This document shows positions 31,101 through 37,100 of a stretch of 64,000 nt of DNA, piece by piece; positions within the stretch are counted from its first letter, which is position 1, and each line of letters starts with the position of its first letter. The notes beneath the pieces were generated by a model that worked only from the letters and a program-made list of their open reading frames with translations, ran no database searches and was not told where the DNA came from. Both the position numbers and the translations under genes were made by a program. Source of the DNA: Cristatella mucedo (taxonomy: Eukaryota; Bryozoa; Phylactolaemata; Cristatellidae); the NCBI GenBank assembly GCA_009760855.2, contig WPIO01000034.1:922501-986500 (forward strand), written 5' to 3'.

Positions 31101-34100
31101 GTTTCTCCTTTCAGGCACGCAAGGAACGCATGTAGCCGCCACAGCTGCTGCCTACTTTCCCACGGATCCAACCAAAGACGGTGTCGCTCGTGGCGCAACA
31201 CTAGTGTCTCTCAAAATTGTTGACACTCGGCTGAGATCGATGGAAACAGGGAGCGCTTTAGTCAGAGCAGTAAGTATGAGAGACGATGAGTGGTGCGACC
31301 CAAGGTGATATGAACCACAAAATCTAGGCATTGACCACCATTTCCCAAATTTTACGTGAACTGCTATTATCTGGAAATTGTAGATGACTAAAGCTATCGA
31401 GCTTAAATGTGACCTGATCAATTGCAGCTATGGAGAATTATACCTGTGGCCTAACGATGGGTAAGTACGAGAGCTCCCACCAATCAGATGTGATCGTGAC
31501 CTTTGCCTCTGATTAGCTGAGCCAGCAGTTGGTAGCGAATGTGCAGTGTCAGCTTACTATATTTCCCCATCCGTCGATGCACGCGGTCATGTGCATGCAT
31601 CATGAACTCACTCGCTTTGTGCGTGAGGCTGCTTGTTCACCACTGGGTAACCGTTGGTAATGTGCTTTGTAGTCGAGTTACCCGGATTTTATCAGAGGCT
31701 GTTAACAAGCACGGAATAATATTTGTATCGAGTGTTCTTGATTACGGGCCTGCACTGACGACGGTTGGATCTCCCGGTTGTACCACTACAGCTACTATTG
31801 GTATGTGCACACAAGTTGCTTTGTTGCCATTTCGTACTAATCCCAATTGGGTTTACCACTGAAATATTGCACTCATTTGTAACTCCACAGCATTTCAGTT
31901 GCAAGCATAACTTTATGGATAGCGTTGTTACTGATATAGTCGCTGTTCGTTCTTGACCTGCTCTTCGGTAGTAACGCCTTTCTCTACTTTATGGTGAATA
32001 TCTATGCACTTTTCAGGTACATAGCCGGATTTACTTTTCTCAAATGTGATCGAAACCTGTACTTTTTTGGCCATATATGAAAGCTATCGTAAGTTTTATA
32101 TCTCACGGCCAATGCAGAATGCTTACTTTCATTTAAGCTCAAGCTAGGGGAATAATGAGTAGCACTTGTAGGTATCGTTTTTATAAGCACTCATCGACTA
32201 ATATTAATCTTAATTTCATAATTGGTTTAGGGACGTTTCAAGTCTATTTATAGGACATTGTTGCAGAAGAATTCTCACTTAGCCTAGGCTAGGGCAACAG
32301 ACAATGTCCTGGTTTGTCACTTAAATCCTTTGTCAATTTGCGATGGTAAAAGCGACATATTACGCCGTGTACCTGATTTTGCAGCCTGTTGTGAAAGGTC
32401 TTCTTTGGCAATTTTGTCGCTTAGAGGCGTAAGACCGAGGGTTCATTCCGAAAGTGCAATGCTCATGGGGTCTATTTAGCCACTTCAAAAAAGGGATTTT
32501 TTTTTCTTATTCACAAGTCAGAGTTCACACATCGCTAGCTCGTGCCTCGCGTTGCCTCTTGCCAACACTTTTAGAATGCTCCCAAGCTTGCCACCCTAGA
32601 ACCTCCGCCCTCTGCTTGCCCAGGAGCTGCTATATTATCCAAGCTGTCAGGCCGCCTGCATCCACTAGCGATGTGGCCGCCAGCCATACTTACTGAGCAG
32701 GATCAAAACCCTTCACCCTGATTGAAAGGATTATTTGCATCCATTGCTTTTTCACTGGGACATTCCAGCATCACTTGTAGACTACAAGAGGACCTGGACT
32801 CGGTCGTCTGGCTATTGGTCTTATTGGCTGCTGCTATTGTTCCCAAAAGGTCAGAAGCTTCGATGCCGGGTAAGGGATCACATTAGAGTCGCAGGCTTGA
32901 ACTCTGCAGACGTGAAGAGCCTGGATAGAGATAGAGTTCTCTGAAGGTACTACACAGATTAATTATATTTTTATACCAGGTCTAGAGAAGCTCATCTGCA
33001 ATTGAGTTAATGTAATTAGTAGCTTAAGCAGACTGTTTCCTCTGCTTTGCAGCAGACCTACATGTCTTCTGGGAGCCTTGGCAGAGCTCGTGCCCCTCCT
33101 TCTCAGTGTCATGGGCGGCCTGACAGTCGCGGAGAGGTGCCCCCTGCTCCAGGTGCGGCCAAGGCAAAGGCCATCTACCGAAACGAGAGTGCCGTGCACG
33201 GCTCTGCAGCCGCTGCCAGATCGCACCTTGTCAGATCTAACCTTTCCCGTCGGCTTTGATTTTATTACTCCTCTTAAAATACCTCTAGTTTCTGTTCGTG
33301 GGCTAAGGGTTCGCGACCACTATTAATAAAGTGAAAAGTGTGCTGGGAAGTTACAATCGCCCTAGTAGCAGACGCCCTGTTACTGAACCTCAGAGCCTCC
33401 GGCGATATGAGAGCCTGCGAAAATGCCTGCAGCATCAAGCTCAATGCATCTTGTTTGCAAGAGCAGGCAAACGCAGCAGGCAGTGATTGTCTCAGTGATT
33501 GTCGTCGTGGTCACTCGAAAATTGGGAGCTGCTCCGGCTTTACGGTGCTACGATCGGATCGGTTGCTGCAATTGCCAGGTAGCAGCAGCTTAATCATAAG
33601 GTTCGTCGTTCGGCCTTTCTCTTGTCAATAGGCATCGGAGACTACTCAGTTATATATATACATATAAATATATATATATAAAAATATATAAATAAATAAA
33701 TATATATATATATATATATATATATATATATATATATGTATATATATATATATATATATATATATATATATATATATATATATATATATATATATATATA
33801 TATATATAGATAGATAGATAGATAGATAGATAGATAGATAGATAGATAGATAGATAGATAGATAGATAGATAGATAGATAGATAGATAGATAGATAGATA
33901 GATAGATAGATAGATAGATAGATAGATAGATAGATAGATATATATATATAGTATACTGGGTGGGAGGGAGACCCTTTTTTACTGCTCGTGCTTCTAGGGA
34001 ACCCGCGTGCTGCACTCAATCGCGTTTCTTGAACTTTTAGGAGTCGGTGCTTTTGTCTCGTCTGAAATGATGGCTGCACAAAATTCACTCATCGAGAATG

Positions 34101-37100
34101 TACCACCCACCCAGTATACTTGGTCGTCACGTGGGCCAACGTAAGTGCAATGTCTGTTGAGTATTCCCAGGGCGAGCGCCCTTAATCATACTGATCTATG
34201 GTTGCATTCGCTACTGCTGGTTGTTTATATATTGGTGCACCAAAGCGATATTTCTACTTCCTGGCTCTTTTCAAGGCAACGTTGGTCGAGGGAGCCTGGC
34301 GGCCGGTTTCACGGCACAGGTGCGCCACGGCGATGTTTACGGTCTTTTTTAGAGGTCATCCATCATCAGCTGCTGTCGCTAGGTAGATAATAATGCTGCC
34401 ATAGTGTCATTAGGTTAATCACACTCCTCGAGTATCGAACATTAGTTGTTGCCAGTTGTTTGGTGTTGCATTTGTATGCCAGGGCTGTGTGCACAGGAAC
34501 TCACATCTATGGTTCACAACATTGCTAAAAATCGGGCTTGTTTAGGTAAGGATACCACGTCCAAGTTGGTCCATGCATTCGTGACATCCCGTCTCGACTT
34601 CTGCAACTCACTGCTTACTGGCCTACCAGAATGTGCGATCAGGTGATTGCAGCTGGTGCAAAACTCCGCAGCTAGACTTGTCTGTCGTGAGCGTCGCAGT
34701 TGCCACATTACTCCACTTCTCGCCGGCCTGCACTGGCTACTAGTCAAGCAACGTATTGACTTCACATTTTTGTCGCTCACTTTTAGGTCACTTCATTCTA
34801 TGGCTCCAGCCTATCTCTCAGATATACTACCCCATCAGGCCAAGCATCGTGCCACCCATGTTTAGGAATCCAACAGTCTAGAAATACCTCGTACAAACCT
34901 TAAATCCTTTGGAGACCGTGCATTCAGTTCGTATGTTCCCAAAGCCTGGAACTCCCTCCCGACCAGCATCAGAACATCCCCTGATCTGACCACATTTAAA
35001 AGAAACTTAAAAACACGCCTATTTAGGACAGCATTTAGTGGGTCCCTGTGATTCGTCGTTGATGTGCTTATGCGTGTTGAAGCTGCATACTGCCACTAAC
35101 CACATTTGCATGCTGACCCTGTGCATGTCACCCCTAATCATATTATTCATTCCGTTTGTTTTTCAAGCATGATTTTACTTACCATTCAATTGCATTTCAC
35201 TTTGCAGCAAATTTAAAGCGCCTAGAAAGAGAATTAGTTCTCTGAGGGCGCTTTATCTAGTGCATTAATATTATTATTATTATTATTATTATTGGTGCAT
35301 GCATATTTACAAGTACACTCTCTCCCCTACATGGGCCGGCTCGGTTCCTTACAACGGTAAGTGCCAATTGCTTAAATGAAAGCGGATCTTAACAGTTGAA
35401 ACTAAAAGTTAAATTTGAAATTTAATCAAATGGAAAGTTTTTTAATTTTTATTTTCATTGATCATTCAACCATTTTCCGAAGAAAAGTGTAGAATTTTAG
35501 AAAGCGGAATGGCATAGGTAGCAGTGCGTGCAAGTCAGTAAGGCGATTAAGTGCCAGTCAGAAGTCTATTGAGATACATCTTGAAGTTCGGAAAAGTGAT
35601 AAAGATAAAAGGAAATGCACACGTGTGAAGAAATTGAATGGCGAAAACTTAAGATAAGATAAATGTAGGGCGTTCTCCCTTTATCTCTTCAATGTGGTAT
35701 ACGAGGAAAATCAGCAAACTATGCATTCTTTTTTTGAGCAGTAAGTCTCTGGATTCCGATAAGAAAATAGCTAAGTACACAAATTTGGTGCACAAATAAC
35801 ACACGAACTGCAAGGTAAGAAACGCACAAATGAGAAAGCCAATTAGTGTGGCACTTCATAAAACTAAAATGTAAGCAACTTCGTGTAAATTCCACTGTTT
35901 TCCAGTGCAGAGACAGTGAGAAACTGAATTCGAAGCTAACCAGCGCTGATGAAAAAATGACAAGTGGCTTTATTTTCAGTGTCCCAGTTCGAACGTTGAT
36001 ATGCTTTAATTTTTCGCCCGAATGCTGAAAACAATTCGAAGTTTTGCATTCAAAACAGTACCCGAGCTGCAACATTCAAAACATCTAAGGCTCACAAACC
36101 GGAACTTTGTTATCAATAATGCTCGTAAGAGAAAAAACAGGCAGACATAATGCATGTTAATCAGGAGAACTTGCAAAAATCTGCTTATTTGAGTAAAGTG
36201 TGCCCTAACAATTGAGAGGTTATCGGAATCTTTCTCCGGCATCCAAGTTTGTGCTCGGGGAAAGGCCTTACTCCTAACAATCAAAGTGTTGGCTTTGAGC
36301 CTGTCAGTTGGGCAATCTTGTATATCCTGCTGTGCTCGTTCAAGCCGTCAAGGCACTTCCGCCTCGGTCAATTATATTAGGGACGCTAACTAAGCTAACA
36401 TTAATTCGGCCTCATTTGCTGGCTATTTGTCACTGTCGTGCCATAACCGGCTGTTCACCGTTCCGCGTCTAGGGAGCTTGTCCACCTGGTCATCGGCACC
36501 CGTGTTCTCCGTTTCGGTTACCTTGGACGTCCAAGCTGTATGCTGACCGATCGGGCAGAAGTAGCAGCTGCCGGGGGAGGGTTAGGGGCGTGGCTATCGG
36601 CATGGCTGCATCTTCTTTTGGCTGTCTTATCTTGTGAGTACCTGATTGGGTGGCCATTAGTCGATAATGCCACAAAACTGGCTGCCGGTCGTGGCGTTGG
36701 TGGCGCCTTCCCCTCTGATGTTGGATGTACAATGTACTCCGCCTCCCACGTTGGTACAGCAAGCGTCTGCAAGCCTCGGGCAGCAGCAGCAGGGCTGCTC
36801 CTGCTGCCCGAGTCAATCCTGTCGGGCAGCGCAGGCAGAGGCATTACTTCTGCAGTGTTGATGGAGCCCTCGGCGTTTGTATTTCTGCGCCCGGCGGCGC
36901 CATTACATCCGTGCCTCTATGGACACTGCAAAACTCTCAGCTGATGAACGGCGCCAGCGTGGCATCAGCTAACGCATGTGGTGGAATAGCACTTGTCCTA
37001 TCAGGTAATGCAAATCGTAGCGAGCATCTTTACCAGACATTACATTGCCGTGACACTGCTCCGGGGGGGGGGGCAATGAATTTGCTATTTTGATCTCTTA

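Follow-up and report, generated by a model that had tools for sequence, protein, structure and literature searches.

TPP2 forms a cytosolic peptidase complex whose mass exceeds 5 MDa and in which stacked dimers make up two strands; the only means of activation demonstrated for it is complex formation (PMC2933905). The same source assigns the catalytic triad of human TPP2 to Ser449, His264 and Asp44. Here we analyse a TPP2 gene of the bryozoan Cristatella mucedo (GenBank assembly GCA_009760855.2, genome 572 Mb) that lies in a stretch of 64,000 nucleotides, hereafter the window, covering positions 922501-986500 of the 4.17 Mb contig WPIO01000034.1. This contig carries four TPP2 copies, named A to D. 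The gene analysed is copy D, and within an intact reading frame its catalytic His and oxyanion Asn have been replaced. The original prediction, made from the window sequence, had called it a TPP2 pseudoprotease and had known of no described TPP2 pseudoenzyme, which is consistent with the open-licence literature, where we found no TPP2 example.

Pseudoproteases of the subtilase fold are already known. Clostridioides difficile CspA and CspC are described as paralogues within the subtilases in which two catalytic residues are altered; they stand beside an intact CspB and have non-catalytic jobs (PMC6636752). They are bacterial proteins of a separate subfamily with a prodomain and a role in spore germination, and CspC has Thr and Gly in place of His and Ser, whereas copy D lacks the His but keeps the Ser. 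Plasmodium PIMMS2 is a second precedent, a subtilisin-like protein with a non-catalytic job that was called a likely pseudoenzyme from its altered HGT and GTS motifs. In contrast to copy D, it is a parasite-stage protein with a transmembrane domain and is not TPP2, and the account consulted mentions no tandem active twin (PMC5520436).

Two active systems are also close. PC2 (PCSK2) resembles copy D in that an Asp occupies the oxyanion Asn position (PMC4182778, PMC7144994) but is described as an active convertase that keeps Asp, His and Ser. Active TPP2/TPPII of family S8, as in human and Drosophila, is similar to copy D over its full length, the Drosophila structure 3LXU aligning with residues 8-986 of a 990-residue copy D query. 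Copy D differs from it in having Gln for His, Asp for Asn and GASVASA for GTSMxxP, and in a TPPII_C domain that scores under the cut-off.

Results

Replacement of active-site residues in copy D

We aligned the array copies with 135 TPP2 proteins. These were cluster representatives drawn from the best 120 of 3259 protein matches to copy B and the best 120 of 1504 matches to copy D (queried as a 1263-residue model), an origin that biases the set toward good matches. The catalytic Asp, His and Ser and the oxyanion Asn are each present in 135/135 homologues, as are the Met and the Pro of GTSMxxP. Of these six invariant residues copy D retains only the catalytic Asp and Ser; the His, Asn, Met and Pro are replaced by Q, D, V and A. 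The His position is occupied by Gln263 (codon CAA, 31120-31122) and the oxyanion Asn position by Asp361 (GAT, 31740-31742), which lies within SSVLDYGP where copy B has SSAGNSGP. The catalytic Asp43 (codon 10131-10133) is kept, and so is Ser448 (AGC, 36956-36958), the latter within NGASVASA, so that GASVASA stands against GTSMASP in copy B.

Both replaced codons, and the retained Ser in its altered motif, had been reported in the original prediction and were confirmed in the sequence. The constant one-residue offset to human TPP2 also held, D43, Q263, D361 and S448 of copy D being human D44, H264, N362 and S449 minus one (the number N362 is taken from that prediction). As judged from the homologue alignment, the replacement of His and Asn is not due to chance or to loose alignment.

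Among the protein matches listed there was one close homologue, P0001, whose source is a contig of 4175 bases. It is 84% identical to copy B and 73% to copy D and carries AHGTHVAG, GTSMASP and the Asn in SSASNSGP. Copy D also has changes at four near-invariant residues in the region of the oxyanion and Ser loops, Gly360, Thr447, Met449 and Pro452; Gly360 is absent from P0001 as well. Copy D keeps two further residues found in 135/135 homologues, namely Glu304 (31243-31245) and Glu330 (31435-31437), the Glu of METG and of SYGE, and both are likewise kept in copy B and P0001. We take these two Glu to bind the N-terminus of the substrate, an assumption for which our paper search found no source. 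Copy D therefore has the presumed N-terminus-binding pair of an active S8/TPP2 peptidase and lacks the full Asp-His-Ser triad and the oxyanion Asn; an essential catalytic residue has been replaced in an intact frame, as in a pseudoprotease.

Loss of the His should take away the general base and is strong evidence for lost catalysis. The change from Asn to Asp is less decisive and alone need not kill a subtilase, because PC2 has Asp at that position. In the data reported for PC2, swapping this Asp to Asn made no measurable difference, and the Asn-to-Asp change at the oxyanion position of Kex2 gave a marked decrease (PMC4182778). The original prediction had held all of these residues to be essential or near-essential, which is too strong for Asn-to-Asp.

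Gene structure of an intact copy

Exon-by-exon modelling with splice sites gave copy D 26 exons and 1277 codons plus a stop, with no in-frame stop codon and with GT-AG at 25/25 introns. The prediction of 23 exons with correct splice sites and no stops was right about frame and splicing; 23 is the number of exons inside the window, and a further three lie beyond it, with the stop codon around 6.1 kb past the window end. Copy D has lost no intron and carries no in-frame stop, frameshift or broken splice site, and it shows none of these marks of a processed or decayed pseudogene. Compared with copy B, its exon 24 lacks 54 bp, a multiple of three. The exons are as follows (window positions unless stated).

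10005-10166, plus strand: exon 1 by exon modelling, with the start codon and the codon of Asp43 (Asp in 135/135 homologues)
11247-11375, plus strand: exon 2
20368-20568, plus strand: exon 3
27046-27170, plus strand: exon 4
27410-27573, plus strand: exon 5
31115-31269, plus strand: exon 6, with Gln263 and Glu304
31384-31460, plus strand: exon 7, with Glu330
31673-31800, plus strand: exon 8, with Asp361
34041-34140, plus strand: exon 9
36856-37004, plus strand: exon 10, with Ser448
37110-37225, plus strand: exon 11, a likely site of gene conversion (see below)
43954-44131, plus strand: exon 12
44619-44779, plus strand: exon 13
44923-44999, plus strand: exon 14
49298-49401, plus strand: exon 15
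50607-50761, plus strand: exon 16
54746-54862, plus strand: exon 17
57516-57716, plus strand: exon 18
58487-58624, plus strand: exon 19
58847-59182, plus strand: exon 20
61714-61859, plus strand: exon 21
62266-62362, plus strand: exon 22
63568-63716, plus strand: exon 23, the last within the window
Contig 987098-987344, 991006-991137 and 992548-992637, plus strand: exons 24, 25 and 26, past the window
538-699, minus strand: first exon of copy C, the divergent neighbour

An extra copy D exon near contig position 992221 was considered and dropped; it has no counterpart in copies B or C, and P0001 shows the preceding exon continuing. Within the introns of copy D, a long TA and GATA microsatellite occupies 33640-33960, and the long reverse-strand frames listed there are repeat. 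The stretches around 34500-35300 and 39530-39970 look like remnants of non-LTR (non-long terminal repeat) retrotransposons.

Copy D scores above the Pfam cut-offs for S8, TPPII (196.9 bits), the Ig-like domain (111.3) and the galactose-binding-like domain (73.2). With its full-length homology and these TPP2-specific domains it is a TPP2 by descent.

A tandem array with at least one canonical copy

The array copies were read by tblastn and blastn in fetched stretches. Copies A, B and C lie on the minus strand and copy D on the plus strand, C and D being head to head. A genome search with residues 1-990 of copy D gave 52 matches, all on this contig, with scoring applied to 46 of the 77 candidates from the first look. 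Copy B is canonical, with an open frame and AHGTHVAG, AGNSGP and GTSMASP. Copy C (contig around 859930-923199, minus strand) is also open and retains Asp, His, Asn and Ser in AHGTHVAA, VGNQGP and GTSMASP. It lacks the two Glu that are otherwise 135/135 in TPP2, having Ala and Arg there, and the Arg of SSRGP has become Cys. Arg likewise occupies the second of these Glu sites in copy A. Exons 3-9 of copy A read open, and its exon 10 (contig around 689.7 kb, minus strand) has lost 88 bp, the Ser codon among them, which puts it out of frame.

Where exon ends were located in B and C, they agree with those of copy D. The one exception is a GC donor after exon 7 of copy B (contig around 777502, minus strand), a site that reads GT in copies A, C and D. 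Exon 2 of copy C and exons 1-2 of copy A were not found in the readable sequence, in which parts of those introns are N. Elsewhere in the assembly, COX1-like pieces occur outside the mitochondrial contig (contigs C166, C83, C549 and C299), most with stops under the usual code; they are possibly mitochondrial insertions. The mitochondrial COX1 itself gives an open frame under translation tables 4 and 5, and by eye AGR as Ser suits its conserved positions. Among the best 120 matches listed, it shares 95% identity with one record and no more than 82% with records that carry an organism name (molluscs, nemerteans, annelids and others); its placement in a tree lacked support, and the likeness is to lophotrochozoan invertebrates in general.

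A species-wide loss of TPP2 catalysis is ruled out by the catalytic residues of copies B and C. Since B is canonical and C retains Asp, His, Asn and Ser, catalysis would have been lost in one duplicate and not in the TPP2 of the species. The original prediction was silent on the three further copies, although the first exon of copy C lies within the window. Its pseudoprotease is upheld as to the intact frame, the loss of His and Asn and selection, and becomes a changed paralogue beside at least one canonical copy.

Divergence and likely gene conversion within the array

Synonymous divergence by the Nei-Gojobori method (NG86 dS) was 0.41 for B-D, 0.47 for C-D and 0.27 for B-C, with nonsynonymous values (dN) of 0.12, 0.16 and 0.09, respectively. 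Copies D and B are 76% identical in aligned non-exon DNA (14,070 bp) and 85% in exon DNA (3,734 bp). In a tree of 18 rows hand-chosen from 138, P0001 was placed outside B, C and D with support of 99/97, and the three copies showed no settled branching order; the approximately unbiased (AU) test does not reject a placement of D outside P0001, B and C (p-AU 0.21).

Directly upstream of the start codon, 72-84 bp of copy D align with copy C or B, at 81-82% identity over aligned lengths of 102-113 bp, of which 29-30 bases are coding; the proximal 5' region would therefore have been carried along in the duplication. In exon 11 the dS between D and B is 0.07 against 0.41 overall, and A and B are 99% identical. 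Exon 13 is far more alike between A and B than the rest of the gene. These likenesses suggest gene conversion near the Ser exon, which would have left the Ser motif of copy D unrestored.

Selection on copy D

In order to estimate selection we used our own codon model on 1231 codons common to B, C and D in an unrooted three-gene tree. The branch dN/dS values were 0.30 for B, 0.51 for C and 0.37 for D, and a value of 1 for D was rejected (likelihood-ratio test, LRT, 79.2). This is the branch estimate that the original prediction had proposed as a check, and so too was the alignment to other TPP2 proteins described above. A separate ratio for D fitted no better than a single common ratio of 0.395 (LRT 1.09). 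By part, the D value was 0.24 in residues 1-520 and 0.24 in residues 521-990.

We then counted changes at near-invariant columns, defined as those conserved in at least 97% of the 135 homologues (259 columns). At 238 of these columns B and P0001 both have the conserved residue, and copy D has changed 19 of the 238. Neutral simulations at seven distances, from 0.005 to 0.04, combined the absence of a stop with at least 19 changes at these columns in no more than 0.2% of the 3000 runs made for each distance, and purely neutral recent decay of copy D is accordingly unlikely under this model. Within 6 residues of the active site copy D changed 6/31 near-invariant sites compared to 13/207 elsewhere (p 0.024). 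Copy C showed no such excess (3/31 and 19/196).

Several observations weigh against copy D being a maintained pseudoprotease. Residues 991-1277 are near neutral (dN/dS 0.92, LRT against 1 of 0.18). The D branch averages over the time before and after the loss and, in an unrooted three-gene tree, may contain the stem, so that part of its ratio may record selection on an active ancestor; purifying selection is seen on the branch average only. Of the 259 near-invariant columns, D breaks 35, B and P0001 17 each, and C 34 of those that it covers, 13 of the 259 being gaps in C. When each homologue was left out in turn the median was 1, with 22 for P0001. By these counts conservation is loose across the lineage as a whole, and about as many columns are broken in C as in D. 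The excess of changes around the active site is weak, with p 0.14 once Gln263 and Asp361 are set aside. The TPPII_C domain of copy D scores 18.9 bits, below the curated 27.7, as compared to 46.8 for B, 45.2 for C and 46.4 for P0001 (B, C and D submitted as C-terminal pieces). If this C-terminal part is needed for assembly, copy D may not co-assemble. Furthermore, no orthologue of D turned up in a second species, and no transcript or protein record of copy D was among the best 120 of 1504 matches; likewise, no record identical to copy B was among the best 120 of 3259.

Discussion

The sequence of copy D combines His-to-Gln and Asn-to-Asp replacements and an altered Ser motif with an intact frame, intact splice sites and, on the branch average, purifying selection. 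Based on these features copy D probably encodes a selected, non-catalytic protein, one that would be made and folded as TPP2 and would not cleave peptides at a meaningful rate. Taking this core together with the mechanism considered below, we lean modestly towards the view that copy D is a TPP2 paralogue from a local duplication that has turned pseudoprotease.

The strongest competing explanation is a young pseudogene, in which a redundant duplicate recently lost catalysis and is decaying without having yet acquired a stop or frameshift. Copy D is redundant with copy B, its sister copy A is already broken by the deletion in exon 10, and its own C-terminal quarter is near neutral with a degraded TPPII_C domain, all of which such a pseudogene would explain. 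We nevertheless regard it as unlikely, given the rejection of a neutral ratio over the whole branch, the integrity of 1277 codons and 25 introns, the rarity of the joint outcome in the neutral simulations and a shortening of exon 24 that stayed in frame.

That copy D is still an enzyme is very unlikely. Here catalysis would be altered, for example by the substrate or some other residue taking the part of the base, or by a mechanism of the acid type. The sedolisins, TPP1 included, have Glu in place of the His and Asp in place of the oxyanion Asn, and the changes in copy D point toward these residues. Asp is also the natural oxyanion residue of PC2 (PMC4182778), subtilisin-like proteins with Ser-Glu-Asp triads are reported (PMC11593635), and copy D retains Ser448, Asp43, Glu304 and Glu330. 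Gln, however, is unable to serve as a general base, unlike His or Glu, and the four near-invariant residues of the oxyanion and Ser loops have changed as well. An assembly or base-call artefact is highly improbable, as we found no evidence supporting one, 7 of the 12 bases that encode VLDY are different in copy B, the divergence of D from B in dS and non-exon DNA is gene-wide, and the frame is intact throughout on a contig of several megabases.

If copy D is a maintained pseudoprotease, how might it act? We suggest only tentatively, at a little short of an even chance, that it does so by mixing with the active copies. As TPP2 consists of stacked dimers and has no demonstrated activation other than complex formation, a dead copy D subunit could enter or cap strands of active copies and so tune their activity or length. 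Alternatively copy D could hold peptides by their N-termini without cutting them, since it keeps Glu304 and Glu330. Both proposals draw on the assembly biology of TPP2 and on the precedents of a dead subtilase beside a live one.

A wider division of labour within mixed TPP2 spindles is conceivable but doubtful. Copy B would then be a normal tripeptidyl-peptidase, copy C might cut in another way because it lacks the two invariant Glu presumed to measure off tripeptides, and copy D might only bind, as it keeps the Glu pair but neither the base nor the oxyanion Asn.

Since assembly is the only demonstrated activation of TPP2, a dead subunit occurring alongside active ones would serve as a natural experiment on the role of the assembly beyond cutting.

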